Below, one piece after another: positions 960 to 27,945 of a stretch of DNA of 51,840 nucleotides; within the stretch, counting starts at the first letter, position 1, and the number at the start of each line of letters is the position of its first letter. This DNA is from Promethearchaeota archaeon. GTDB lineage: Archaea; Asgardarchaeota; Lokiarchaeia; Sigyniarchaeales; SOKP01. The stretch lies in the NCBI GenBank assembly GCA_019894715.1, contig JAGXOA010000192.1, positions 1 through 51,840 of the forward strand. The letters are read 5' to 3'. The position numbers and the translations under genes are program-made. The notes under the pieces were generated by a model. It searched no databases. It saw nothing but the letters and a program-made list of their open reading frames with translations, and had not been told where the DNA came from.

Positions 960-2297
960 ATGTCCTATAAATTCAGTAAAGAAGAATTAAAGAACTTATT
1001 AGTTAATCACAACGAGACTGCTCTTAAAAAATATAATTCTCCTAAAGAAACCTTTATTTGGGATGAGACCCTCCGAGATGGAGAACAGAATCCAACAGTT
1101 ACTCTAACCTTAGATGAGAAAATCCATTTAGTTAAGCTAATGGATGAGATCGGCGTAAATATTATTGCAGTTGGATATCCTGCAGTATCTGAAACAGAGA
1201 AAAATATTGTCAAAACTATAGTTAATGAAGGTACACTCAATGCTTCAATAGTAGGTGTTGCTCGTCCTAAAAAGGAAGATATAGATGCTTGTATAGAAGC
1301 TAATCTTAAAGAAATTGTTATATTTATGCCTATTTCTCCTATTTTTATGAAGACATTAAAATCTACTGAAGAAAATGAATTACAACAAATATCTTCTGCA
1401 ATTCGATATGCTAAAGATAATGGATTTAAGGTTAATTGGGTTTCTGAGGATGGCTCGAGAGCAGATCTTAATCATTTAAAGAATGTTTTTAAAACAGCTA
1501 TAAATGCAGGATCAGAGAGAATTATTTTAGGGGATACTGTAGGTATTTTAACTCCTCAATCAACTAGTTATTTAATAAAAGAAATCAAAGAAGACGTAAT
1601 AAAACCTCTTAAGAGTAGAATTCCAATGGGAATTCATACACATAATGATTTTGGATTAGCTGTTGCAAATACTATCACTGGAGTATTTGAAGGATGTGAA
1701 TTTCCCCACACATGCATAAATGGATATGGCGAAAGAGCTGGAAATGCTGCTTTAGAAGAAGTAGTTACAATTTTAGAAAGAATGAATATAAAAACTAGTA
1801 TTAAATTGAATAAATTACCCGAATTAAGTAAAATATGTGAAAAGTATTTTTGTATGCCTATTTCCCAATATAAACCAATTGTTGGGGAAAATGCTTTTAG
1901 TCATGAAAGCGGGCTTCATATCGCCGGAATCCTTGCTCATCCTCTTACTTACGAACCAATTAACCCAAAAATGGTGGGAAGAAAAAGAAAGTTTTATATT
2001 GGCAAATTTTCAGGCTCTTCTTCAATAATGTATGCGTTAAAAGAACGATTAAAAGTATTGGATTTAGAATGCATTCCAGATGATGTTATAAAAGAGATAG
2101 TATATCAAGTCAAAAAAACTCATGAATCAAAATCTAAAGAAGAGATTAGACGCTCATTTCAACTAATTAAGGATGAGTTAAAAAAAATAACAAGAGGATT
2201 TAGTGACACTGATTTTTTTAAAATAGCTAAAAAATATGCTCTTCCTTATGTGCCTAATGAATTTAAATTTAAACCCTATAAAGATGATAAAAAATGA
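960..2297 (+). CDS. homocitrate / 2-isopropylmalate synthase-family enzyme
   Basis: A 445-residue member of the HMG-CoA lyase-like TIM-barrel synthases that condense acetyl-CoA with a 2-oxo acid. Visible motifs are DETLRDGEQ (35-43), HTHND (226-230, metal ligands), the glycine-rich GYGERAGNA (255-263) and HESGLH (315-320). The last resembles the NifV/homocitrate synthase region, followed by [13 protein letters not shown]. The C-terminal helical part is too short for the LeuA regulatory domain, so leucine feedback by that domain is not expected. The residue after DETLRDGEQ is NPT rather than the common TPG, which makes substrate assignment uncertain. Homocitrate (lysine by the aminoadipate route), citramalate and isopropylmalate are all possible. 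It overlaps the next gene by four bases (ATGA). Confidence 0.82.
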
Positions 2298-3166
2298 TTG
2301 ACCTTCATTTACATTCTCAAGCTTCTGACGGAGTAGATTTACCATCCAAATTAGTAGAATTGGCATCTGTTCTAAATCTAAAAGCAATTGCTCTTACTGA
2401 TCATGATACTGTTGATGGGGTGCAAGAATTCATTAGATTTGGGGAAGAACAAGAAATAATAGTAATTTCTGGAATTGAATTATCAATTAAACATGAACCT
2501 AGTAGAGATATAAAAGACGTTCATATAATTGGACTGAATATCGATCATAATGCTAATCTCTTAAATAAAACACTCAAACTTCAAAAAAAAGGAAGAATGA
2601 ACCAAAAAAAAGAGATTTGCAAAAGATTAAATCAAGAATATGGATATAATATTACATTTGATGAAGTTAAGAAAGTAGCTCATTCTACTTCGATTGGACG
2701 CCCTCATATTGTTGAAGTCCTAATAAAAAATAATCTTGCTAAAGTAAAAAATAAGACAAAGAATGAACTTTTTAAAATGATTAGTTTAGGGGGAGAAGCT
2801 TATGTTGATCGGGAATTTGAGGTTAATCTTGAAGAATCAATAGAACTGATAAATAATGTTGGAGGAATTCCTATATTGGCTCATCCAGGTATTTATGAAA
2901 TTTTAAATACTAAAAAGTTTATCAAATTGTGCGTTCAAGCGGGTATGAAGGGAATTGAAATAGAATATACATACAATAAAAATCGTCCATATTTTGATAC
3001 TAATAAAGGAGAGTGGGCCTTAAAAACACTTCCAGAATACTTTCAAAAAATCGCAAATGAATATAAACTACTCAAATCTGGTGGTTCTGATTATCATGGT
3101 GATAAAAAAGATATAAAAATAGGAGAAGCAAAAGTTCCTGATAAATATTTATTAGATATACTTTAA
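2294..3166 (+). CDS. PHP-domain metal-dependent phosphoesterase
   Basis: A 290-residue PHP-superfamily protein similar to the TrpH/YciV and nucleoside 3',5'-bisphosphate phosphatase group. Metal ligands expected for the fold are visible: HLHSQASDG (H5, H7, D12), TDHDTVDG (35-42), the Glu of GIELS (62) and a His near 77. Further C-terminal ones are LAHPG and the GGSDYHG end motif. It starts inside the stop codon of the upstream synthase (ATGA overlap), so the two are co-translated. The physiological substrate cannot be told from sequence; 5'-3' RNase activity or pAp hydrolysis are known in this family. It ends 18 bases from the convergent GTPase gene. Confidence 0.8.
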   Translation: MIDLHLHSQASDGVDLPSKLVELASVLNLKAIALTDHDTVDGVQEFIRFGEEQEIIVISGIELSIKHEPSRDIKDVHIIGLNIDHNANLLNKTLKLQKKGRMNQKKEICKRLNQEYGYNITFDEVKKVAHSTSIGRPHIVEVLIKNNLAKVKNKTKNELFKMISLGGEAYVDREFEVNLEESIELINNVGGIPILAHPGIYEILNTKKFIKLCVQAGMKGIEIEYTYNKNRPYFDTNKGEWALKTLPEYFQKIANEYKLLKSGGSDYHGDKKDIKIGEAKVPDKYLLDIL

Positions 3167-3184: not shown

Positions 3185-4873
3185 CTAATCTTCAACAAGT
3201 TTTTCTAGTTCTTCAATTTCCTGATTGATGTTCTTTTTTAAAGATTTTATTCGTTGTTTCTTTTCATTTAATTCTTCTGTTGTGATCTCTCCAGATAATT
3301 CTTTCATTTCAAAATCTAATTCCATTTTTGACATTCTTGCTTTTTTAATTTTAAGATCCATCAACTCTTTTTTTAGACTTTTTTGTTGGTTAACTATAGG
3401 CTCGACTGGATCTATAAATATTTCCTCTTGGGGTTTCTCTTTAACTTCTTCCTTTTTCTCTAAAATTGTTATTGTTTCTTCAATTTTCTTAACATTAACT
3501 TTAAAAGAATCTTTTTTATTCACTTCTAAAGGAGTTTTCTCATTCTTTTCAATTTTAGTAGAATCAGTAGGATTGATAACATGACCAAATGAGGAAGTTT
3601 TTAATTTATTTTTAGCACCTTTAGGAACATTTAAAACTTGTTTAGGACGCTTTTTTACCATAAAATCTTCTGGATTAATATCTAATCCTGCAATATCATC
3701 TTTAACAGCCATTTGTTCTTTAGTTTGTTTTTCTTCAAGAATAATCTCCTTAGGTACACTTTCTTCTGTGGAGTCTTTAGGTACTTTTGGAAGTGATTTA
3801 ATTTGAGGTTTATTTTTATTTTCTAGCTTTACTTCTTTCTTCTCATCAATTTCCTCTGTTTTAACAGATTTTTCTTCAACTTTTTCTTCTTTTTTACCCA
3901 ATTTTTCCAACATTGCTTTTATTTTCTGTGATTTTTCGTAAAATTCTTTGCTAAGACTGTCATCACCTAAATCTATACATAGATCACTTATTTCTTCAAA
4001 TAATTCAACAGCACGATCAAATTGAGCATTTTCTAAAGAAATTTGAGCTTCTTTTATCTTGTTGTCTCTCTCCAATAATGGTTTTAATAATGGAGATATC
4101 GATGTATTCATTTCTAAAACATCTGCTATTATTTTAATCATCTTATCTCTATTATTTTCTTCAATTGCAATCATAGAATATGCTTTTAAACCTAATTCTT
4201 CTTCAATTTGTTCTGGGCTCATAGATTTTGGACGATCTTGTTTATTAGCTATAACTGCTGAATGAGCATGAGGTGCTTGTTCTTTTATTAATTCTAAAAA
4301 GAATTTACTTTTCTCAACATTTTCCATCGAAGAATCTGTTATAAGTAGGGCAGCATCGCTTCCTTTTATAAAATTGGACCATAAATAACTAAATTGCTCC
4401 TGTCCTGCAAAATCCCATAAATGAAAATGTAATTTACCTATTTTAATTGTTGCAATATCTCCAGTTATAGTTGGTACATGTTTCATTGGAATCTCCTCTG
4501 CTTTTATTAATCGAGTTAATGTTGTTTTTCCTACTCCTGAAAATCCAATAAGAGATATTTTTGGTCGAAGACTCCTATGAATTGCATCTACTGTAGGGTC
4601 AAAAACTTCAAATGTTTTAGTATCAAATTTATGTTGGATGATGTCTCCAAATAAATTTAAAAATTCCTTTTTACATTTTTTTAATTCTTTTTTTATACTA
4701 TCAAAATTATCTGTTAATCCTGTAATAAATAAAAACAACACATTGTAACTAATATCAGTGACATATGAAATCCTAAACTTATAATAGTCATGGTAGATAA
4801 CTTCATCACTGGGATTATTTGATATTTCTTTAGATATATCATCTAATATTGTTTTGAAAGCTTCGTCTTTCAT
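3185..4873 (-). CDS. longin-like - Arf/Rab-like small GTPase - coiled-coil fusion protein
   Basis: A 562-residue multidomain protein. Residues about 25-80 fit the second half of a longin/roadblock-type fold (YYKFRISYVT, then a hydrophobic strand and a helix ending FLNLFGDI). Residues about 103-255 are a Ras-superfamily GTPase with P-loop GFSGVGKTT (110-118), switch I Thr in HVPTITGD (132-139), G3 WDFAGQE (153-159) and G4 NKQD (210-213). Residues about 270-325 form a helical-hairpin, TPR-like pair. Residues 325-500 are Lys/Glu/Pro-rich and probably disordered. The last 60 residues form a coiled coil. No lipidation site or membrane segment is seen. It follows the roadblock-like gene by 78 bases on the same strand, which suggests a GTPase-regulator pair. 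Such fusions are known among Asgard small GTPases. Confidence 0.8.
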   Translation of the reverse strand: MKDEAFKTILDDISKEISNNPSDEVIYHDYYKFRISYVTDISYNVLFLFITGLTDNFDSIKKELKKCKKEFLNLFGDIIQHKFDTKTFEVFDPTVDAIHRSLRPKISLIGFSGVGKTTLTRLIKAEEIPMKHVPTITGDIATIKIGKLHFHLWDFAGQEQFSYLWSNFIKGSDAALLITDSSMENVEKSKFFLELIKEQAPHAHSAVIANKQDRPKSMSPEQIEEELGLKAYSMIAIEENNRDKMIKIIADVLEMNTSISPLLKPLLERDNKIKEAQISLENAQFDRAVELFEEISDLCIDLGDDSLSKEFYEKSQKIKAMLEKLGKKEEKVEEKSVKTEEIDEKKEVKLENKNKPQIKSLPKVPKDSTEESVPKEIILEEKQTKEQMAVKDDIAGLDINPEDFMVKKRPKQVLNVPKGAKNKLKTSSFGHVINPTDSTKIEKNEKTPLEVNKKDSFKVNVKKIEETITILEKKEEVKEKPQEEIFIDPVEPIVNQQKSLKKELMDLKIKKARMSKMELDFEMKELSGEITTEELNEKKQRIKSLKKNINQEIEELEKLVED

Positions 4874-4951
4874 AGCTTTACCAAAATGCCTATGGTAAAG
4901 AAGATCTGATTCTTTATATATGTAAACTTGTCTTAAAATTTTAAATCACCT

Positions 4952-5443
4952 TCATTTTGACATATGTTTTATGAGAGTTTTGACAATTGAATATTTTTCA
5001 TTATTTATTTTCTCTTTCTCTAAACTTTCTTTTATTTGATTTAATTCTTTTGAAAAATCAAATGGAGAAAAATCAATACGTTCTGTTTTTTTTAATTTTG
5101 CACTTAAACTTTTAAGAAATAAACGAATACTCGGCATAAATTTAGCTAAATTAACATCTAATCCTAGTTTTGATACTAAAATGAAGTCTTCAGAAAAAGT
5201 GAATAAATAGTTATTTTCTTTAGCTTCAAGAGCAAATGATGTAATCTTATCAAGTTTGAGTGCATTAGCAATACCTTGTCTATTTGATATCAATTCTAAT
5301 ATATTTTGAGGGATTATTTTATCTTTTGATAATTCTTTGATTACTGATCCAAGAATTATACCATATTTATTTGATATAGCACATTTAGCATTCAATTCAT
5401 TTTCCAAACGAGATAAAATTTCATCATAATCTAATTCAATCAT
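4952..5443 (-). CDS. roadblock/longin-like small protein, probable partner of the GTPase
   Basis: A 163-residue protein whose first 115 residues have the strand-helix pattern of roadblock/LC7 or profilin-like domains. A strand with AISNKYGIILGS is followed by two helices and a central helix NRQGIANALKLDKITSF. Then come strands around YLFTFSEDFILVSKL and a long C-terminal helix. The rest (about 115-163) is charged helix. It is the promoter-proximal gene of a two-gene unit with the longin-GTPase fusion downstream. Roadblock proteins act as GTPase-activating or platform subunits, as in MglB with MglA. That role here is inference from fold and position. Sequence identity to characterised roadblock proteins looks low. 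Confidence 0.6.
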   Translation of the reverse strand: MIELDYDEILSRLENELNAKCAISNKYGIILGSVIKELSKDKIIPQNILELISNRQGIANALKLDKITSFALEAKENNYLFTFSEDFILVSKLGLDVNLAKFMPSIRLFLKSLSAKLKKTERIDFSPFDFSKELNQIKESLEKEKINNEKYSIVKTLIKHMSK

Positions 5444-5543: not shown

Positions 5544-6299
5544 TTGAAAACATATAAATTACATTTTAAGGAAAAAGAATCAGATGTCACTATTATATCA
5601 GAGTCAAATTCTGCAATAAAAAAAGCCAAGAAATCTTTCTTTTATCAAAGAAACGTGTTAGAAAAATATGCTTATAAAAACAAGGAATTTTTAACTTCTT
5701 TTTCTCCTATAAAAGTAGAAAGTAATGAGAAAATTATAAATATAATGGCAGAAGCAGGATATTTATGTGATGTCGGACCTATGGCTTCAGTTGCAGGAGC
5801 AATTGCAGATATCATGGTAGAAGTAATGCAAAAAGTTAATCTAGAGAATTATGTGCCTGCAAGAATCGCCCTTGTGGAAAATGGTGGAGAAATTGCGATA
5901 AATTCAGTACAACCTATGAAAGTTGGATTATATACTGGACCTAATGACTTAAATTTTAATATTGGTTTTTTAATTGAGGAAAAAGACTGTCCTATTGGTA
6001 TAGGAACGAGTTCGGCAACAATTGGACATGCCTTTAGTTTTGGTGATGCTGATGCGGTAACTATTTTTGCTGAAAATGCAACTTTAGCAGATGCTTCTGC
6101 TACTAGGGTTGCAAATGTTGTAAAAGGAAATGATATTGAGAAATCTATTAATATTGGATTAGATATTGCTCAAGATATTGTTGGAATAAGAGGGGCTATT
6201 ATAAATCGTGAAAATAAAGTGGGTAAGGTAGGTAAAATTCCAAAATTGATTAAAATTGAGGGAAATGCAGACTATTTATTAGAACAAAAAAAAAGTTAA
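5544..6299 (+). CDS. UPF0280 family protein (ApbE-like fold)
   Basis: A 251-residue protein with the hallmarks of UPF0280, a family found widely in methanogens and other archaea. These include GPMASVAGAIADIM (about 78-91), a central ENGGEIAI segment and GIGTSSATIGHAFSFGDADAVTIFA. The last closely follows the family's GTSSGTxGHSxSxGxADAVTV-type motif. The family is structurally related to ApbE flavin transferases, but no function is established. No ATG is available near the N terminus and the frame opens with TTG at 5544, which gives a family-typical length. It is divergent from the roadblock gene with a 100-base gap and stands alone on the plus strand. Confidence 0.8.
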   Translation: MKTYKLHFKEKESDVTIISESNSAIKKAKKSFFYQRNVLEKYAYKNKEFLTSFSPIKVESNEKIINIMAEAGYLCDVGPMASVAGAIADIMVEVMQKVNLENYVPARIALVENGGEIAINSVQPMKVGLYTGPNDLNFNIGFLIEEKDCPIGIGTSSATIGHAFSFGDADAVTIFAENATLADASATRVANVVKGNDIEKSINIGLDIAQDIVGIRGAIINRENKVGKVGKIPKLIKIEGNADYLLEQKKS

Positions 6300-15429: not shown

Positions 15430-17091
15430 ATGGATAATCAAAGAATTCTAAAAGAAGCGCAAATAATCGCCTCAAAATATTCGTTTTGGATGGTTTCTGG
15501 AGATATAAATCATTTATACGGTTATGTCTATAAGACAGATGAAATTAAATATGAACTTGAAATAAAATTCAGTTCCAATTTTCCTCATTCTCCTCCAGAA
15601 CTTATATTTCATGAAAAAATCAGAAATTTACTTGGTGATATTCAATTAAATACACTATTTAATTGGGATGAGAATCAAAAAGTTGTAAATATTATTGATG
15701 AACTTAAAATGAAAATACAAGAGAGACTGGTTTCTCCTCAAGAAATTCCCGATACTAAAGAACAAAATGATTATATAACCCCCGATATGGATATGTATTC
15801 TTCTGATTTTGAAACAGACCAATATGTTACTCCTACTCTTACAGATAATGATTTTTACTTCGACAATGAAGATAAAATCGAGAAAAATAATCCAAATATT
15901 GAAATGGCAGAAGAAAATAATAATCTTCCTAAAAATATAATAACATCTCCAGAAGAATTATTTGTGGATTCTGATTCAGATTCATTGAAGATTAATACAG
16001 AATTAGGATTAATTCAGCAGGAATATGCTTTTGATCATCAAGGAGATGAAATAGCTGATATTGTTATTTACATGACAATTACATTAACTAAAACATTTTT
16101 AATAAACATTAATTTTTCAAATTATCCAAATAAACCTACTATTATATTACCAAATGAAATAAAATCTATTTTTGGGGATATAAATCAAACATTAACAGCA
16201 TTAAGAAATTGGGAAAAAAAAAATCCTCTTCATATAATTGATATAATTCATGAGCTTGAAAAAAAACTTTCTTCTGTAAAAAAAATAGAGACAGAAGTAA
16301 ATACAATTACCCAAGAATATCAATTTGAAAAGGTATATGGAAGTCTAAGTAAAATTCAAGTAAAGTTGCTAACCTATGGCTTTAAAGAGTATTTTCTAAA
16401 AATGGATTTAGAAACTTTTCCAAAACTGCCAATAATTGAATTAACCCAAGAATTAAGAGACCTTATACGAAAACCTCTAAATGAACTAGAATCAATTAAA
16501 AATTGGGTGGAAAAGGAATCTGAGTCTATTAGTATTTTAAGAGAAGTTTCTTGGTTGATAGATAAACATTCTCGTATCAATTTTGAAATAGATTTGTTAA
16601 GAGAACATTATAAAAATATCAATTATGATATTCTAAGTAATACAATTTATGTAGATATGAAGGGTAAAATGAAATCAGAAGATCTTACCTTCGAATTTAA
16701 AATTGAGTTACCTAAGGATTATCCTATGATGATGCCAAAAATAATTGTAGTAAATGAATTTGACATAGAATCTCATGAAAAGATTAAAAATGACCTAAAT
16801 GCTTCCTTTAAAGACTTTTATAATGATTGGACACCAAATCATTATTTAGTTGATCTTTTTAACATGATTTCCAAGAAAATATTTGAAGTTTCTGTTGTAT
16901 CGTGTGTTATCTGTCATAAAATAGAATGTCCTGAATGTAACGTAAGAATAGCTGGTGCTGAGGGTGATTCATGTCATATTGAATGCCCTTATTGTGAACG
17001 TTCTTATCATAAACATTGTTGGACACAAACAATTAAATCTTTTGGAAAATGTGGATTTTGCTTAAAAACACCTCCACCATCATTCTATTAA
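15430..17091 (+). CDS. protein with four tandem RWD/E2-like domains and a C-terminal RING-type zinc finger
   Basis: A 553-residue soluble protein. Four segments repeat the E2/RWD pattern of an amphipathic helix, a beta meander with a Phe/Tyr-Pro-x-x-Pro turn, and a closing helix: residues 1-100 (NFPHSPPELIF), 186-283 (NYPNKPTIILP), 284-381 (TFPKLPIIELT) and 384-487 (DYPMMMPKIIV). No catalytic Cys of active E2 enzymes follows the turn. The first two domains are separated by an acidic linker (101-185). The C terminus (492-544) has CVIC, CPEC, CPYC, YHKHCW and CGFC zinc ligands resembling a RING or RING-CH finger. RWD-RING proteins in eukaryotes are ubiquitin E3 ligases. A ubiquitin-type E3 or scaffold role in an Asgard archaeon is inferred. 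No ubiquitin, E1 or E2 gene is in this window. Confidence 0.72.
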   Translation: MDNQRILKEAQIIASKYSFWMVSGDINHLYGYVYKTDEIKYELEIKFSSNFPHSPPELIFHEKIRNLLGDIQLNTLFNWDENQKVVNIIDELKMKIQERLVSPQEIPDTKEQNDYITPDMDMYSSDFETDQYVTPTLTDNDFYFDNEDKIEKNNPNIEMAEENNNLPKNIITSPEELFVDSDSDSLKINTELGLIQQEYAFDHQGDEIADIVIYMTITLTKTFLININFSNYPNKPTIILPNEIKSIFGDINQTLTALRNWEKKNPLHIIDIIHELEKKLSSVKKIETEVNTITQEYQFEKVYGSLSKIQVKLLTYGFKEYFLKMDLETFPKLPIIELTQELRDLIRKPLNELESIKNWVEKESESISILREVSWLIDKHSRINFEIDLLREHYKNINYDILSNTIYVDMKGKMKSEDLTFEFKIELPKDYPMMMPKIIVVNEFDIESHEKIKNDLNASFKDFYNDWTPNHYLVDLFNMISKKIFEVSVVSCVICHKIECPECNVRIAGAEGDSCHIECPYCERSYHKHCWTQTIKSFGKCGFCLKTPPPSFY

Positions 17092-21578: not shown

Positions 21579-22592
21579 ATGATTATTCGATCTAAAGCTC
21601 CTTTTCGTGTAAGTTTTGGTGGTGGTGGTACTGATATGCCTCCATATTGTTTGGATCATGGGGGATGTGTAATAAGCACTACAATTGATAGACATGTTTA
21701 TGTATCAATTAAACCAAGAGATGATAATTATGTTCACATAAATGCTATTAATTTTAATGAAAAATATATTTTCCAAATAGGAGATAATGATTATTCTACC
21801 AGATTTGAAGTAATTAAAGGTGTTATTAATTACTTGAAGGTCGATAAAGGATTTGATATTACTATATTTTCGGAATTACCTGTAGGATCCGGTATGGGCG
21901 GATCATCTTCCCTTGCTGTAGCTCTAATTGGTGCCTTTGATAAATATTACAATTTTGGATATAATAAACATGAAATAGCTCAAAAAGCTTATGACATAGA
22001 AAGAATTGAATTAAATCAAAAAGGAGGATATCAAGATCAATTTGCAGCATCATATGGGGGATTTAACTTCATAAAATTCAAAAATGAGGTAGAAGTAATA
22101 CCAATAAAGACATCTATTGATATGATTAATGAACTTCAACATTGTATGATAATGTGTTATGTAGGTGGTTCACATTTCTCTTCAGATATCCAAGATAATG
22201 TATTAGAAGGTTATCAAATAAAAAGAAAATCCTTCATGGAATCAATGGATGATTTAAAGAAAGTTGCATATGGAATGAAAGATATTATTGAATCAAAAGA
22301 CCTAAATAATATTAAACAATTTGGTGATTTATTACATCAAGGTTGGCTGGCAAAAAAAAGTCTTAGCAATAAAATCTCGAATAAAAATATAGAAAACTTT
22401 TATATTAGTTCAAGAAAATTAGGTGTAATTGGAGGAAAGCTTTTAGGGGCAGGTGGTGGAGGACACCTATTATTATTCTCCGAATCCAATCATAAATATG
22501 AAGTAATTGATGAATTGGAAAAAAAAGGTGGAAAAATAATAAATTTTCATTTTAATCCTAATGGATTAGAAGTGTGGAAAATAGATAATTAA
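21579..22592 (+). CDS. hddA: D-glycero-alpha-D-manno-heptose 7-phosphate kinase
   Basis: A 337-residue GHMP kinase. APFRVSFGGGGTDMPPY at the N terminus is the signature of the HddA/fucokinase-like sugar kinases. LPVGSGMGGSSSLAVAL (about 101-117) is the ATP-binding GHMP motif, and LLGAGGGGHLLLF near residue 305 is the C-terminal glycine-rich motif. It phosphorylates heptose 7-phosphate at O1 to the alpha-1,7-bisphosphate of the GDP-heptose route. It is the first gene of a nine-gene plus-strand operon that also has gmhA and gmhB, which makes the assignment firm. The nucleotidyltransferase HddC that would complete GDP-heptose is not in the window. A TATA-like ACATTATATCAAT sits near 21530. Confidence 0.88.
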   Translation: MIIRSKAPFRVSFGGGGTDMPPYCLDHGGCVISTTIDRHVYVSIKPRDDNYVHINAINFNEKYIFQIGDNDYSTRFEVIKGVINYLKVDKGFDITIFSELPVGSGMGGSSSLAVALIGAFDKYYNFGYNKHEIAQKAYDIERIELNQKGGYQDQFAASYGGFNFIKFKNEVEVIPIKTSIDMINELQHCMIMCYVGGSHFSSDIQDNVLEGYQIKRKSFMESMDDLKKVAYGMKDIIESKDLNNIKQFGDLLHQGWLAKKSLSNKISNKNIENFYISSRKLGVIGGKLLGAGGGGHLLLFSESNHKYEVIDELEKKGGKIINFHFNPNGLEVWKIDN

Positions 22593-22683
22593 TCCCAAAC
22601 AAAATAAAAATAGTGGTTATCTTTTTTTTTTACCTTTGTTTATTAAAATAAATTTAAAAAAAAATTTCCAAAATTATAATATT

Positions 22684-23250
22684 ATGAAAAAAGAAATTAT
22701 ATCCATAATAGATGAATCTATTAAAATAAAAGAAAAATTAAAAAATCAAGCAGAATTAATAGCTGATATTTCAAAAAAGATAATAGAAGCATATAAAAAT
22801 CATAAAAAAGTCGTTGTATTTGGAAATGGTGGAAGTGCTGCTGATGCTCAACATATAGTGGCTGAGTTTGTCGGTAAATTCTATATGGATAGAGAATCAT
22901 TACCTGCTTTAGCTTTAAGTACTAATACTTCAAGTCTGACTGCCACAGCAAATGATTTTGGTTATGATAATGTGTTTGAAAGACAAGTATCATCACTCGT
23001 TAATAAAGGAGATATTGTAATTGGTATTAGCACTTCTGGCAATTCTCCGAATGTTATAAAAGGTCTTGAAAAAGCAAAAAATAAAGATGCAATTACTATT
23101 GGATTCACAGGAGAGAAAGAAAACTTTATAGAAAAAATCGTCGATTATTGCTTGAAAGTACCCTCAACAGATACACCTCGTATTCAAGAAGGTCATATAA
23201 CAATAGGACATATTATTTGTTATTTGGTTGAAAAAGAGATCTTTAGTTGA
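22684..23250 (+). CDS. gmhA: sedoheptulose 7-phosphate isomerase
   Basis: A SIS-domain protein of 188 residues from the ATG at 22684. An upstream in-frame TTG at 22636 would add 16 unlikely lysine/asparagine-rich residues. VVFGNGGSAADAQHIVAEFVGKF contains the phosphate-binding Ser and the zinc-ligand His typical of GmhA. STNTSSLTATANDFGY and GISTSGNSPNV complete the active site, and TPRIQEGHITIGHI provides the C-terminal Glu and His residues. The reaction turns sedoheptulose 7-phosphate into D-glycero-D-manno-heptose 7-phosphate. In the operon it follows the kinase and precedes three genes able to make sedoheptulose 7-phosphate. Confidence 0.92.
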   Translation: MKKEIISIIDESIKIKEKLKNQAELIADISKKIIEAYKNHKKVVVFGNGGSAADAQHIVAEFVGKFYMDRESLPALALSTNTSSLTATANDFGYDNVFERQVSSLVNKGDIVIGISTSGNSPNVIKGLEKAKNKDAITIGFTGEKENFIEKIVDYCLKVPSTDTPRIQEGHITIGHIICYLVEKEIFS

Positions 23251-23264
23251 AGGAAGTATTTAAA

Positions 23265-23891
23265 ATGAAGAAAGTAGCTGTAGCATTACATGCCATTGAA
23301 AATGTTAATTTGGATTTGATTAAAAAGTTAATAAACTTAGATTTTATTCATATAGACGTTATGGATGGTATTTTTGTTAATAATACTATGTTGAATTTGG
23401 AGCTCTTTAAAACTATAAAAGAAAATTTTAAAATCCCAATTATTGCACACTTGATGGTTAAAAACCCAATTGATTATATTCAAAAAATAATTCAATATGT
23501 AGATGTGTTTTTTTTTCATATAGAAGCAGAAGATTCCACAAATTTAGTTATCAAAGAATTAAAAAAATATAAGAAAGGAATTGGATTAGTTCTTAATCCT
23601 CCAACACCTATTATAAAAATTGTTCCCTTTTTAGAAGATATAGATTTTATTCTTGTTATGGGTGTAAATCCCGGATGGTCTGGTCAGAAATTTATTCCAG
23701 AAACGATTGAAAAAGTTAATAAAATCTCTAAGTATAAAGATAAATTTAGCTTTGAGATTGATGTTGATGGAGGAGTTAATTTGGAAAATGGTAAGTTGCT
23801 CATAAATGCAGATATTTTAAGTAGTTCAAGTACAATTTTAAATGCTATAGATCCCAATAAAGTGATTAATTCAATAAAAAACCTAACCTAA
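23265..23891 (+). CDS. ribulose-phosphate 3-epimerase family protein
   Basis: A TIM-barrel protein of 208 residues from the ATG at 23265. An upstream TTG at 23247 in the stop region of gmhA is less likely, and GAAGGAAG precedes the ATG as a ribosome binding site. Active-site features of ribulose-phosphate epimerases are present: HIDVMDG, AHLMV, MGVNPGWSGQKF and EIDVDGGVN. It would interconvert ribulose and xylulose 5-phosphates. Placed between gmhA and gmhB with transketolase downstream, its job is probably to feed xylulose 5-phosphate into sedoheptulose 7-phosphate formation. The N-terminal strand (VALHAIENVN) departs from the usual SILSAD, so another heptulose-phosphate substrate is possible. 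Confidence 0.82.
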   Translation: MKKVAVALHAIENVNLDLIKKLINLDFIHIDVMDGIFVNNTMLNLELFKTIKENFKIPIIAHLMVKNPIDYIQKIIQYVDVFFFHIEAEDSTNLVIKELKKYKKGIGLVLNPPTPIIKIVPFLEDIDFILVMGVNPGWSGQKFIPETIEKVNKISKYKDKFSFEIDVDGGVNLENGKLLINADILSSSSTILNAIDPNKVINSIKNLT

Positions 23892-23892
23892 A

Positions 23893-24441
23893 ATGAAAGA
23901 TAAGAATGTCGCAATTTTTTTAGATAGAGATGGAGTAATTAATAAAGAAGTAAATTATCTTGCAGATCCTGATAAGTTTATTTTGTTAGAAGGGACTATA
24001 GAAGCACTTAAAATTCTAGTTAGTAAAGGTTATCTTTTAATTTTAATTACTAATCAAGCAGGTATTGCGAGAGGATATTTTACAGAAACTAAACTTACTG
24101 AAATACATGATAAAATGAATAAGATTTTTAAGGAAAATACAACTTCTCTTGATGATATTTTTTATTGTCCTCATCATCCAATGTTCACTGGTCCATGTGA
24201 ATGCAGAAAACCTAATCCAGGTATGATTATTGAAGCAAAAAAAAAATATAATATAGATCTTGAGAACTCTTACATGGTTGGGGATACTTTGAATGATATT
24301 AAAACGGGTAAAAATGCAGGATGTAAAACAGTTTTGGTTTTAACTGGACATGGAACTGTTGAAAAAGAGAAAATAAATGAAATTAAACCAAATTATATTT
24401 ATAATAATCTATTGCAATTTGCCGAAAATATAAAATTGTAA
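23893..24441 (+). CDS. gmhB: D-glycero-D-manno-heptose 1,7-bisphosphate 7-phosphatase
   Basis: A 182-residue HAD phosphatase with FLDRDGVIN (nucleophile Asp and acid/base Asp) and ITNQAGIARG. A zinc loop CPHHPMFTGPCECRKPNPGM and GDTLNDIKTGKNAG supply the remaining metal and catalytic ligands. The Cys/His zinc loop is specific to the GmhB/histidinol-phosphate phosphatase subgroup. It removes the 7-phosphate from heptose bisphosphate after HddA. It starts one base after the epimerase stop. The pathway step after it, transfer of a nucleotide to heptose 1-phosphate, is not encoded nearby. Confidence 0.92.
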   Translation: MKDKNVAIFLDRDGVINKEVNYLADPDKFILLEGTIEALKILVSKGYLLILITNQAGIARGYFTETKLTEIHDKMNKIFKENTTSLDDIFYCPHHPMFTGPCECRKPNPGMIIEAKKKYNIDLENSYMVGDTLNDIKTGKNAGCKTVLVLTGHGTVEKEKINEIKPNYIYNNLLQFAENIKL

Positions 24442-24482
24442 TAAAGATTATTATGACTAAAAAAATAATGTAGTGAAATTAG

Positions 24483-25142
24483 ATGAAATTTTTTATTGAT
24501 ACTGCTAATTTAGAACAAATAAAAGAATACCAGGAATTAGGTATTCTAGATGGAGTTACTACAAATCCAAGTCTTTTAGCCAAAGAGGGTATCGAACCAA
24601 TGGAACAATTAAAAAAAATTTGTGAAATTGTAGATGGACCTGTTAGTGGTGAAGTTATAGGATTAAAAACTGAAGAAATGGTAAACGAAGCGAGAGAATT
24701 GATAAAAATAGCTTCAAATATTGTCATTAAAATTCCCTTTACTAAAGATGGGATTAAAGCAGTTAAAATATTAGAACCTGAAGGGATTAAAACTAATGTT
24801 ACTCTTGTTTTTTCCCAAAATCAAGTATTAATTGCCGCAAAGGCAGGTGCTACCTATATTAGTCCCTTTATTGGTAGATTAATGGATAGTGGTCAAAATG
24901 AGATTGATATGCTAAAGGAAAGTATGAAAATCATAAAAATATATGATTACAAGTCTGAAATAATTGCAGCGTCAATAAGAAATGCAAGACATGTAATTGA
25001 ATCAGCTAAAATGGGTGTTCATATTGCTACAATTCCTTTTGGTGTTTTAGAAAAAATGTTTAAACACCCAAAAACAGAAGAGGGAGTAAAAGCATTTTTA
25101 AAAGATTGGGAAAAATTACAGACTCAATTAAAAAAAAAATAA
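24483..25142 (+). CDS. transaldolase (TalC/MipB-type, short form)
   Basis: A 219-residue TIM barrel of the short transaldolase/fructose-6-phosphate aldolase family. [16 protein letters not shown] and [13 protein letters not shown] open the fold. [14 protein letters not shown] holds the Schiff-base Lys. [11 protein letters not shown] and [10 protein letters not shown] follow. The Phe in SPFIGR occupies the place where fructose-6-phosphate aldolases have Tyr, which favours true transaldolase activity. It would make sedoheptulose 7-phosphate from erythrose 4-phosphate and fructose 6-phosphate. Its position inside the heptose operon supports a supply role there rather than general carbon metabolism. 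Confidence 0.88.
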
Positions 25143-25157
25143 TATAATTCCTTAAAA

Positions 25158-26141
25158 ATGAATCTTATTGAAGGTATAGAAAGTTGGAATAAGAAAAAAG
25201 TCTTAATAATCGGAGAAGCCTTATTAGACAAATATATAACGGGTCAAGCTGATAGAATTTCTCCTGATGCCCCAGTTCCTAATATAAAAATCGAAGGAAA
25301 CTCTACTTATTTGGGGGGGATTGGACTTGTTTTAAGATTTATAAAATCCTTAGGTGGGATACCAAAAATCTGTACTATTATAGGAAATGATTATGAAGGA
25401 GAATTCTTTCTGAAGAAATTAAAAGAATTATCAATAGAAACATCTGGAATTTTAATTGATGATACTATTAGTACACCTCAAATAACCAGAATTAAAGCAA
25501 TGAATCAACATATTCTACGATTAGAGACTGATTATAATCAAAATATACCAAATTCAACTCTTAATAAATTTATTGAAAAAATAATATCTACAGAATCAGA
25601 TTTAGATTCTATTTTGATATTGGATTATGGAATAGGAGGATTATTTCAAGATATTTTTATAAACAATCTAATCATCAAATTAAAACAAAATTTTTCAGTC
25701 CCTATAATTGCTCGTCCAAATATAAACAATTATTACCTATACGAAGATATAGACATGATTAGATTACACCTCAAAAATGCTCTTAATGCATTATCTATAG
25801 AATGCTGTAATGATACCAGTGTTTCAATCGTTGGGAAAAAAATTATAAATACCACTAAAACTAAAAGTGTTTTACTCAATCATATTGAATCTAAATCTTA
25901 TTTATTTGAAAATAAAAAAGAAAATTTTGAAATTGTTCCATCCTCATTAAACACTCCTGTTAGAAGCTATGTAACTGTGGGTAGTATTATTATGGCAATT
26001 TTAGGTTTAACTTATGCAAATAAATTTCCTCCATTAAAAGCTGCAGAGTTGGCTATTAAAGCTGCTTGTTTTTCAGCTTCATTACCCCCTATTGAATTTT
26101 TTAATCAAGAAAAACTGATAAATAATATTTCAAAAGAATAG
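25158..26141 (+). CDS. HldE/PfkB-like protein lacking the kinase catalytic motif
   Basis: A 327-residue ribokinase-fold protein. The start of the fold (VLIIGEALLDKYITGQADRI, then SPDAPVPNIKIE) matches the first domain of HldE/RfaE heptose-phosphate kinases. However, the substrate-binding GGAANVA becomes GGIGLVLRF. The catalytic DVTGAGDTVIATL stretch aligns with SYVTVGSIIMAIL, so the Gly-Ala-Gly-Asp anion hole and the base Asp are gone. There is also no C-terminal cytidylyltransferase domain. It is in frame throughout and spaced 15 and 8 bases from its neighbours, so it looks like a maintained gene rather than debris. A sugar-phosphate sensor, a regulator or a structural partner of the heptose enzymes is possible; kinase activity seems unlikely. 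Confidence 0.7.
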   Translation: MNLIEGIESWNKKKVLIIGEALLDKYITGQADRISPDAPVPNIKIEGNSTYLGGIGLVLRFIKSLGGIPKICTIIGNDYEGEFFLKKLKELSIETSGILIDDTISTPQITRIKAMNQHILRLETDYNQNIPNSTLNKFIEKIISTESDLDSILILDYGIGGLFQDIFINNLIIKLKQNFSVPIIARPNINNYYLYEDIDMIRLHLKNALNALSIECCNDTSVSIVGKKIINTTKTKSVLLNHIESKSYLFENKKENFEIVPSSLNTPVRSYVTVGSIIMAILGLTYANKFPPLKAAELAIKAACFSASLPPIEFFNQEKLINNISKE

Positions 26142-26149
26142 TAATAAGC

Positions 26150-27004
26150 ATGGAAATCTCACAAACAGAAGAAAAAGAATTATCAGTAGATATTTTAGAG
26201 ATCAAAAAAGAAATATTAAAAATGATCTGGTTAGCTCAATCAGGCCATCCGGGAGGATCATTATCATGTATTAGTTTAATTTATATTTTGTATAAGAATA
26301 TCATGAATATTGATTCTAACAATCCAAACTGGGAAGATAGGGATATTTTTATTCTTAGTAAAGGGCATGCTGCTCCTGCTTTGTATGCTGTTTTATCTAA
26401 AGTAGGATTTATAAAAAAAGAAGATTTGTTCACTCTTAGGAAATTTGGTTCAAAACTTCAAGGGCATCCAACGAAAAATTTAAAGTTAGGAATAGAAATA
26501 TCTACCGGATCTTTAGGTATGGGTTTTTCTACCAGTATAGGATGTGCTTTAGCAGCTAAATTAGACAATAAAGATAAAAAAATATTTGCTCTATTAGGTG
26601 ATGGTGAATTAAATGAAGGAGTTATATGGGAAGCTGCTATGGCAGCAAGTCATTATAAACTGGATAATCTCATAGCAGTTATCGATAGAAATGGTATTCA
26701 AAGTGATGGCTCAACTGAAGAGATTATGGCATTAGAACCTTTAGCAGACAAATGGAAAGCATTTGGGTGGCATGTAATAGAAATAGATGGCTCTAATATA
26801 AAAGATATCATTAATGGCTTTGAAAAAGCATGTAATACTTTTCGTAAACCCACAGTCATTATATCATATTTAATAAAGGGAAGTGATGTTTCTTTTATGG
26901 AACATACAAAAAAATATCATGGAAAACCTCCAAATAAAGAAGAATATGAAATTGCGATTACTGAAATTGATAAACAAATAAAACGAATTCAAGGTGATTT
27001 GTAG
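26150..27004 (+). CDS. transketolase, N-terminal (TPP-binding) subunit
   Basis: A 284-residue split transketolase half. WLAQSGHPGGSLS and LSKGHAAPALYAVL are active-site His motifs, and LGDGELNEGVIWEAAM followed by DRNGIQ is the thiamine diphosphate motif. Length and end point are those of archaeal and bacterial two-subunit transketolases. The partner begins two bases after the stop. Together they transfer a two-carbon ketol unit, giving sedoheptulose 7-phosphate from xylulose and ribose 5-phosphates. Placed in the heptose operon, the pair is probably dedicated to precursor supply. Confidence 0.93.
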   Translation: MEISQTEEKELSVDILEIKKEILKMIWLAQSGHPGGSLSCISLIYILYKNIMNIDSNNPNWEDRDIFILSKGHAAPALYAVLSKVGFIKKEDLFTLRKFGSKLQGHPTKNLKLGIEISTGSLGMGFSTSIGCALAAKLDNKDKKIFALLGDGELNEGVIWEAAMAASHYKLDNLIAVIDRNGIQSDGSTEEIMALEPLADKWKAFGWHVIEIDGSNIKDIINGFEKACNTFRKPTVIISYLIKGSDVSFMEHTKKYHGKPPNKEEYEIAITEIDKQIKRIQGDL

Positions 27005-27006
27005 AA

Positions 27007-27945
27007 ATGTCAAATATACCTGCACGTGATATACTGGGTAAGTTCTTGGTGGAAAATGGAGATAAATATGAAAATATGGTTGTATTAAGCGCAGATTTAT
27101 CTTTATCAATAAAAACAGATATATTTGCTCAGAAATATCCGGAGCGATTTTTTAATTTTGGAATTGCGGAACAAAATATGATAGGTGCTTCGATGGGTTT
27201 TGCAATTTCAAATAAAATGCCTATAGTATGTGGATTCTCTTTATTTACAACAGGTAGAGCATGGGAGTTCATAAGATTAGCTTGTCATGATAATTTAAAT
27301 ATTAAATTTGTTACCACTCATGCAGGACTCGTTGGGGGTGATGGGAGTACCCATAGTGCTTTAGAAGATCTAAGTTTAATGTCTTGTTTACCAAATTTAA
27401 ATGTATTGGTTCCAGGAGATAATGTGGAAATCGAAAAAATTCTTGAATATGCATTTAATACACCAGGCCCTTTCTATATAAGATTACCCAGAGGTAGTCT
27501 TGAGGATATTCATAAAAAGGATTTTACTTTTAATCCCAATTCTATAGATATAATAAAAGAAGGAAATGAAATAAATGATATTTGCATGATAGGTGTTGGA
27601 TCTGGTTCTTCTATTGCCATTCAATCAGTATCAAAACTAGAAAAAGATTTGAATATTTCGATAAAAATAATAAATCAATCAGTTGTAAAACCCATAAATA
27701 TCAAAAATTTTATATCTAGAATAAAAAATGACAAATGTATTTTAGTTATTGAAGAACATAATACATATTGTGGTTTTGGAAGTATAATATCCAGAATCGT
27801 ATCTGAAAACTGTCCTAAATATATTAAAACACTTGGTATAGAAAATAGTTTTGGTCAATCTGGATCAAGAATTGAACTCCTAGATTATTATGGATTTAAT
27901 TATGAAAATATAAAAAAAATAATTTTAGATCTCATAAAATCATAA
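27007..27945 (+). CDS. transketolase, C-terminal (pyrimidine-binding) subunit
   Basis: A 312-residue second half of a split transketolase. FFNFGIAEQNMIGASMGFA carries the Glu that activates thiamine diphosphate. THAGLVGGDGSTHSALEDLSLM is the substrate-phosphate region, and PFYIRLPRGS precedes the C-terminal domain with VIEEHNTYCGFGSI. It starts two bases after the N-terminal subunit. An acetylated or novel substrate is not suggested by any visible change. The following gene is an FkbM methyltransferase after a 68-base gap that contains a TATA-like AAATTATATATTAAAT, so the operon may be partly re-initiated there. Confidence 0.92.
   Translation: MSNIPARDILGKFLVENGDKYENMVVLSADLSLSIKTDIFAQKYPERFFNFGIAEQNMIGASMGFAISNKMPIVCGFSLFTTGRAWEFIRLACHDNLNIKFVTTHAGLVGGDGSTHSALEDLSLMSCLPNLNVLVPGDNVEIEKILEYAFNTPGPFYIRLPRGSLEDIHKKDFTFNPNSIDIIKEGNEINDICMIGVGSGSSIAIQSVSKLEKDLNISIKIINQSVVKPINIKNFISRIKNDKCILVIEEHNTYCGFGSIISRIVSENCPKYIKTLGIENSFGQSGSRIELLDYYGFNYENIKKIILDLIKS

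Follow-up and report, generated by a model that had tools for sequence, protein, structure and literature searches.

A roadblock gene and a longin-GTPase gene at one locus

We analysed a 51,840-nucleotide (nt) stretch of Lokiarchaeial DNA, hereafter the window, which is one contig (JAGXOA010000192.1; C203 in our numbering) of a 3.36-Mb, 288-contig genome, has a G+C content of 21-30% per 2-kb step and has Lokiarchaeota records as its closest named relatives. On its minus strand lie two adjacent genes, the first for a small protein with a predicted roadblock fold and the second for a long protein in which a predicted longin domain, an Arf-like GTPase domain, a helical segment and a tail follow one another. 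Because a convergent PHP-domain gene lies downstream and a divergent PRK04334-like gene upstream, the pair forms a two-gene unit, and its strand and spacing suggest that the two genes are probably on one transcript. Both open reading frames lie where the first-pass annotation had placed them (3185-4873 and 4952-5443), with one correction, namely that the GTPase gene is here started at an ATT (4939-4937). An Rfam scan of the window gave no match. The features are as follows:

4952..5443, minus strand: roadblock-fold partner gene (from the list of open reading frames; 163 aa, of which about residues 130-162 form a further helical stretch with a conserved motif at the C-terminus)
4946..4950, minus strand: GGTGA, a Shine-Dalgarno (SD)-like site 6 nt before the ATT (sequence; its TGA is an in-frame stop)
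4937..4939, minus strand: ATT, proposed start codon (near-cognate codon at the same place in relatives; 12 nt after the roadblock stop)
3185..4939, minus strand: longin-GTPase-helical-tail gene (584 aa from ATT 4939; the frame counted from ATG/GTG/TTG is 3185-4873, 562 aa)
4586..4939, minus strand: longin domain, residues 1-118 (predicted topology and structural matches)
4130..4570, minus strand: GTPase domain, Arf-like, about residues 124-270 of 584 (Pfam Arf, Foldseek, profile against the PDB)
3893..4084, minus strand: helical segment of three helices, about residues 286-349 (model; conserved in orthologues)
3188..3391, minus strand: C-terminal 68 residues, partly conserved and, by eye, presumably helical (conservation; behind a low-conservation linker)
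2294-3166: PHP-domain gene, convergent, downstream of the pair (Pfam)
5544-6299: PRK04334-like gene, divergent, upstream of the pair (match below the model cut-off)

Predicted folds of the two proteins

Topology and structural matches both support a roadblock/LC7 fold for the predicted structure of the 163-aa protein. In an AlphaFold2 model of the roadblock and longin parts tethered in a single chain (A3, stops read through, 66 rows; mean predicted local distance difference test (pLDDT) 86.7, predicted template modelling score (pTM) 0.45), the roadblock part follows the order a-b-b-a-b-b-b-a (a, helix; b, strand), made up of helix 6-17, strands 20-25 and 29-33, helices, strands 69-94 and helix 99-118, with pLDDT block means of 91-97 over residues 11-100. 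With VIA-align, residues 1-120 matched Roadblock3 of Candidatus Prometheoarchaeum syntrophicum MK-D1 (9jue; Z 13.9, root-mean-square deviation (rmsd) 2.4, 115 residues aligned), MglB (6hjm; Z 13.5) and 7f8m (Z 12.8), while chains of Rag-containing entries matched through their C-terminal parts, from about residue 178 (Z 10.9-11.7). Neither Pfam nor NCBIfam returned anything credible for the roadblock and longin part; a hint of the CodY GAF domain in the family scan (E 0.11) is in keeping with a related fold, and CodY also matched by structure (Z 10.7-11.0). The roadblock-like character proposed at first pass is thus borne out by fold where Pfam is silent. Three residues in the C-terminal stretch are near-invariant (I153, K155 and K159), and this conserved motif is a likely docking element.

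The N-terminal domain of the second protein is likewise predicted to have a longin fold, as supported by its topology (b-b-a-b-b-b-a-a in both modelled chains) and by its structural matches. Residues 169-286 of the tethered chain matched Sec22b (Z 13.5, rmsd 2.7, 115 residues aligned with VIA-align), further longin matches were VAMP7 (Z 13.2, rmsd 8.9), synbindin (Z 12.2) and SRX (Z 11.4), and a Foldseek comparison likewise supports the assigned folds. Counting the 22 residues upstream of ATG 4873 makes the longin domain complete. The longin-like N terminus of the first-pass annotation holds in the model, which did not predict an unrelated fold in its place.

A second AlphaFold2 model, of the longin-GTPase-helical chain (A4, 54 rows; pLDDT 79.8, pTM 0.59), places a linker helix (residues 107-123) between longin and GTPase and three helices after the GTPase domain. 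As had been claimed, the GTPase is complete: the GFSGVGKTT, WDFAGQE and NKQD motifs are present, including the Gln of DFAGQE, and Pfam Arf matched residues 104-233 of the 562-aa frame at 1.5e-20 (73.8 bits against a cut-off of 22.3). By both sequence and fold the domain is nearest to Arf/Arl among the matches listed, with Arl1, Arf1 and the Asgard GerdArfR1 as the nearest structures in the best 50 of 1141 Foldseek matches (E ≤ 0.001) and Arf/Arl proteins or fusions with Arf making up the best 60 of 84 profile matches against the PDB. Switches I and II, PTITGDIATIKIGKLHFHLWDFAGQE, are nearly invariant among orthologues, and the same genome holds 39 GTPase matches. What had been read as a TPR-like pair behind the GTPase corresponds to three predicted helices, but TPR_8 reached only E 0.2, below cut-off. 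In the tail, read at first pass as disordered or coiled-coil, conservation among orthologues is low over about residues 345-520 and then rises toward the C-terminus, of which no second copy was found in the same genome.

In members of the Arf family, the GTPase domain is immediately preceded by an amphipathic helix at the N-terminus that is often myristoylated, whereas here the longin domain and linker helix (107-123) occupy that position. By eye, no Arf- or Rab-type membrane anchor is evident at either end, since the N-terminus is the longin domain and the C-terminus (...EELEKLVED) has no cysteine. Recruitment through partners, as for Rag, is therefore more likely.

The pair is conserved among Lokiarchaeia

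The distribution of the pair was followed in 58 related genomes, the window's own included (G numbers), and in named contigs (L numbers), where a search found 217 relatives; the best 80 were kept, all of them Lokiarchaeota/Lokiarchaeia, Harpocratesius or Prometheoarchaeum records, and without L116, whose start is truncated, 79 usable loci were left. GTPase matches occurred in 58 of 58 genomes. A single-sequence search found the roadblock protein in 32, and in 31 of these it is encoded directly upstream of, and on the same strand as, a long longin-GTPase, although in G003 the adjacency rests on a contig-end piece, with only the C-terminal part of the roadblock on the GTPase contig. In the 32nd, G023, the roadblock gene (L308:1721-2434, minus strand, contig G023:C96) is followed 6 nt on by a 70-codon longin remnant; the long longin-GTPase of that genome (L031/L103) has an ATG start and lies 508 nt from a contig end, the roadblock being absent from that stretch. 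A roadblock profile added only weak partial matches (G004, G007, G008, G018, G023, G024, G031 and G033), two of them in further genomes, which raises the count to 34 of 58; these are probably other roadblock proteins.

Among the named loci, the roadblock gene stands upstream in 48 of 79, at a gap of 12-157 nt. A quick maximum-likelihood tree of 84 longin-GTPases, which came with a long-branch warning, gathered these 48 loci, the window and five unlinked loci into one clade (54 rows, support 97), the rest being two clades of 12 and 15 rows that lack the neighbour, plus three paralogues from the window's own genome. Roadblock presence changes five times on this tree, as does the class of start codon.

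Three observations weigh against a dedicated partnership: a roadblock match is absent from 26 of 58 genomes by single sequence and from 24 of 58 by profile; 31 of the 79 named longin-GTPase loci have no roadblock neighbour (L103 and L134 are too near a contig end to tell); and the tethered roadblock-longin model reached a pTM of only 0.45 despite good confidence within its domains, so that it gives no confident mutual arrangement of the two. An interface between the two products, which the first-pass annotation had proposed to look for, did not emerge from this model as a confident contact. Longin-GTPases lacking a roadblock neighbour are common, and the longin-GTPase core can therefore exist without one. 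It could follow that the longin domain in cis is the sole regulator or adaptor, and that the roadblock protein serves other GTPases and stays adjacent by vertical descent alone. We regard this as rather unlikely, as the adjacency is held while roadblock identity falls from 80% to 28%, over the families f1, f2 and f3 and also in L117, from another lineage, and as searches of the 58 genomes turned up no full-length copy of this roadblock protein outside the pair, the exceptions being the contig-end pieces of G003 and the G023 copy with its longin remnant.

Other genes occupy the upstream position at some loci. In G051, G053 and one of the two loci of G054, a gene for 166-178 aa lies 117-292 nt upstream of the GTPase; it had no match to the roadblock profile and no credible match in the PDB, and a weak profile alignment with the roadblock protein covered 31 C-terminal columns only (probability 39.5, E 3.1e-4). 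The upstream gene is coiled-coil-like in G052 and encodes other proteins in G030 and at the second loci of G004 and G054. In family f4 (L305, G041:C265; L306, G043:C255), a protein of about 300 aa is encoded 55 and 30 nt, respectively, upstream of the long longin-GTPase, and its HSHP motif is one we take to be JAMM-like.

The GTPase gene is most likely started at a near-cognate codon

Upstream of ATG 4873, 24 open codons read FK-ILRQVYIYKESDLLYHRHFGKA, and orthologues share this N-terminal peptide; where the isoleucine codon stands here, some of them have ATG (MLRQ...) and most have ATT, ATA or ATC. Third positions dominate the differences within codons 2-23 (4049, 1808 and 8396 at positions 1, 2 and 3). 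At the 48 roadblock-linked named loci, the codon is ATT in 24, ATA in 10, ATC in 5, ACG in 1, ATG in 7 and GTG in 1, making 40 of 48 non-canonical; the eight with ATG or GTG are L111-L115 (Harpocratesius, Prometheoarchaeum and near kin), L117 (CR_4), L088 and L101. The 31 loci without the roadblock have ATG in 27, TTG in 1 and AUH (AUU, AUA or AUC) in 3, two of which have an in-frame alternative upstream.

The 40 non-canonical loci carry GGTGA at a spacing of 6 in 33 and of 5 in 4, with none in 3. In 36 of the 40, the frame contains no ATG, GTG or TTG from the upstream stop to the near-cognate codon, and in 33 of those 36 the stop is the TGA of GGTGA itself, whereas L104-L107 (4/40) have a GTG three codons upstream as an alternative start. 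AGTGA replaces GGTGA at L088, which has ATG, and at L114, which has GTG, a pattern that would be as predicted from compensation, in two cases only. From these sequences, translation of the GTPase most likely starts at the near-cognate codon, here AUU, and not at ATG 4873, and the protein would therefore have 584 rather than 562 aa.

In its favour, too, the first in-frame ATG lies 22-151 codons downstream across loci. Two findings tell against this start: the first standard start codon is only 4-46 codons downstream if GTG and TTG are counted; and start codon and SD covary on the tree, but in only 3 independent pairs on supported branches. The alternative is that the ATT is no start and that the GTPase is made from a downstream start or by read-through of the roadblock gene. 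Its proponents could point to the GTG of L104-L107, to five loci where a standard start (GTG/TTG) lies only 4 codons downstream, and to the great rarity of AUU starts, put in PMC5622118 at one AUG-to-AUU switch per 61,358 ancestral AUG starts. We nevertheless consider it very improbable. The downstream positions, whether of ATG or of ATG/GTG/TTG, are scattered among loci, and initiation there would often delete the first longin strands, which are conserved as protein; the occurrence of ACG once, and of ATG or GTG elsewhere, at the same place fits a start better than an internal isoleucine; and read-through is opposed by roadblock and GTPase frames that differ in 24 of 40 loci and by the GGTGA stop that stands just upstream in 33 of 36. 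A roadblock-GTPase read-through fusion was itself considered and ruled out, on that out-of-frame gap (24/40) and the in-frame stop just upstream.

Unusual starts on particular genes have bacterial counterparts. The bacterial infC gene has an AUU start under IF3 control. Similarly, sigR, a bacterial gene reported to have a GTC start and IF3 control, combines an unusual weak start codon with a specific gene. Unlike either, the gene studied here is an archaeal GTPase gene, its codon varies among AUU, AUA, AUC and ACG, and GGTGA precedes it in 37 of 40 loci.

Probable near-cognate starts on further genes

We examined 424 kb of the window's own genome for frames of at least 120 codons that are preceded within 15 codons by an in-frame stop and at 5-8 nt by GGTGA. 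The first codon was AUH in 8 of 17, ATG in 2, TTG in 2 and another in 5, one site being counted twice, and the eight AUH cases were the window gene, candidates in L152, L153, L164 and L165, and three genes that were traced in relatives:

L158:7570-8277: GGTGA + AUH gene, own genome
L162:8271-9113: GGTGA + AUH gene, own genome
L161:11437 onward: GGTGA + AUH gene, own genome

Orthologues of these three keep AUH or alternate with ATG, GTG and TTG. With an AUH start called unambiguous when no ATG, GTG or TTG lies in frame within 12 codons upstream, such starts were found in a zinc-finger-like family at 10 of 20 loci (with 8 more that are ambiguous), in a coiled-coil-like family at 17 of 28 (3 more) and in a Rab-like GTPase family at 4 of 16 (1 more), family names being read from sequence; the remaining loci begin with ATG, GTG or TTG or have a start nearby. 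This count does not include the distant rows L190-L199 and L247-L259, and coverage rules removed 2 of 30 rows in one family and 1 of 17 in another. The SD link is weak in the zinc-finger-like family, where 4 of 10 unambiguous AUH starts had no GGTG in the range of positions used, and for a sign test of start codon against SD on the tree the independent pairs were too few, with 3 in the GTPase family (supported branches) and 1, 2 and 1 in the others.

GGTG lay 5-9 nt upstream of 10/710 AUH codons, 27/3521 other codons and 5/266 ATG codons in the own genome (424 kb), of 11/587, 33/3197 and 7/249 in G012 (400 kb), and of 6/442, 31/3078 and 10/254 in the sister-family genome G042 (400 kb). These figures do not support a genome-wide regime of AUH starts, enrichment at AUH codons being only mild in all three genomes, and the class of AUH-start genes is therefore small. 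The 16S 3' end of G042 reads ATCACCTCC, in which ATCACC is complementary to GGTGA. For the window's own family, no 16S match was found in its own genome (G000), G001 or G012, and a contig end cuts the gene in G017 and G020.

SD sites are described as rare in Lokiarchaea in PMC12993045 and PMC7531240; PMC5622118 reports that non-AUG starts in prokaryotes are accompanied by stronger SDs and that AUU switches are very rare, and PMC6237735 that aIF1 discriminates against non-AUG complexes. Searches of an open-access library, outside which most subscription papers and preprints fall, turned up no account of AUH starts being conserved in Asgard archaea. We think it likely that this lineage uses AUU, AUA and AUC, and once ACG, as genuine conserved starts on a few genes, usually licensed by GGTG(A) where such SDs are otherwise rare. 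They would form an initiation class of their own, which would hold down or couple the translation of the GTPase and at least three further families, and annotation restricted to ATG, GTG and TTG would truncate the proteins concerned.

Comparison with known systems and proposed mechanism

The first-pass annotation had likened the pair to MglA/MglB and to Rag/SRX-like systems, and the likeness holds for the fusion and for the roadblock neighbour but not for the class of GTPase or the placing of the roadblock domain. As with MglA/MglB, a small GTPase gene adjoins a roadblock gene, and MglB ranks high among the structures that match the roadblock protein (Z 13.5); unlike MglA, the GTPase here, known from sequence and models, is nearest to Arf/Arl among the matches listed and carries a longin domain and a tail. 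Rag/Gtr GTPases also work with roadblock-fold domains, those of Ragulator, but their own roadblock domain is C-terminal in the GTPase chain, whereas here the roadblock has a gene to itself, the longin stands at the N-terminus, and helices and a tail follow the GTPase (modelled to residue 350). With SRX the protein shares a longin domain (Z 11.4). The SRX longin works with the Arf-like GTPase SRbeta as two separate proteins, while one chain holds both here.

Complexes are known in which roadblock folds dimerise, and others in which longin folds do. Longin-GTPase chains might accordingly pair through their longins and rest on a platform of roadblock proteins in the way that Rag/Gtr rests on Ragulator, a Rag-type arrangement that would also suit the roadblock dimers of PMC10933270 and the classification there of MK-D1 GTPases with a fused longin or roadblock, which are placed as Rag-like yet near Arf. 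We judge it unlikely, and more so than regulation by the longin alone, because the longin precedes the GTPase where Rag has a roadblock after it, and because the nearest structures among the matches listed are Arf/Arl.

In the text parts of Tran et al. 2024 (PMC10933270), MK-D1 is reported to carry 74 small GTPases and longin-GTPase fusions, and its small GTPase genes generally do not share an operon with genes for roadblock, longin or TRAPPC3 proteins. A fusion of this kind is thus already known, MK-D1 being a Lokiarchaeon in which a longin is joined to a Rag/Arf-like GTPase, as is found here; the difference lies in the conserved roadblock neighbour, against generally none for MK-D1 GTPase genes. 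Those text parts describe neither the helical segment, the long tail nor the AUH start, which figures or supplement may cover. As far as that source goes, what is new is the conserved, dedicated roadblock neighbour together with the conserved AUH start.

Our preferred reading, which we hold to be moderately probable, is that the conserved Lokiarchaeial two-gene unit is a dedicated GTPase module with the roadblock protein as cognate regulator or scaffold and a near-cognate start that keeps GTPase synthesis low or coupled. By analogy, the long protein is most likely a switch of the Rag/Arf type that its roadblock partner controls. The roadblock protein would bind the longin-GTPase much as MglB does MglA or Ragulator does Rag; the longin domain in cis may join the same platform or gate the switch, and the tail may carry the output. 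The near-cognate codon with its strong SD just after the roadblock stop would hold GTPase synthesis low or couple it to that of the roadblock protein.

Other genes in the window

At 15430-17091 (plus strand), a 553-aa protein matches Pfam UQ_con (2.9e-8) and RWD (2.8e-7), in two stretches each, and has a cysteine-rich, RING/IBR-like C-terminus (weak, below cut-offs); we note it as an Asgard ubiquitin-system candidate. A run of sugar-phosphate genes at 21579-27945 (plus strand) resembles a heptose-type nucleotide sugar pathway; by eye, from the open reading frames, its genes are a GHMP kinase, SIS isomerase, epimerase, HAD phosphatase, transaldolase, PfkB kinase and transketolase halves.

Significance

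Lokiarchaeia are Asgard archaea, close relatives of eukaryotes, in which the regulators of GTPases are hard to guess from gene order, and the conserved pair offers a concrete, testable candidate partner. It belongs among the archaeal counterparts of the roadblock and longin platforms by which eukaryotic Rab and Rag GTPases are controlled. The proposed AUU start is overlooked by an ordinary reading-frame search. If the AUH starts are true, some Lokiarchaeial proteins are annotated too short, as here, where the longin domain would be shorn of two initial strands, and the choice of start codons in these archaea would be laxer, or more regulated, than assumed. The start-codon result could thus matter more widely than the pair.

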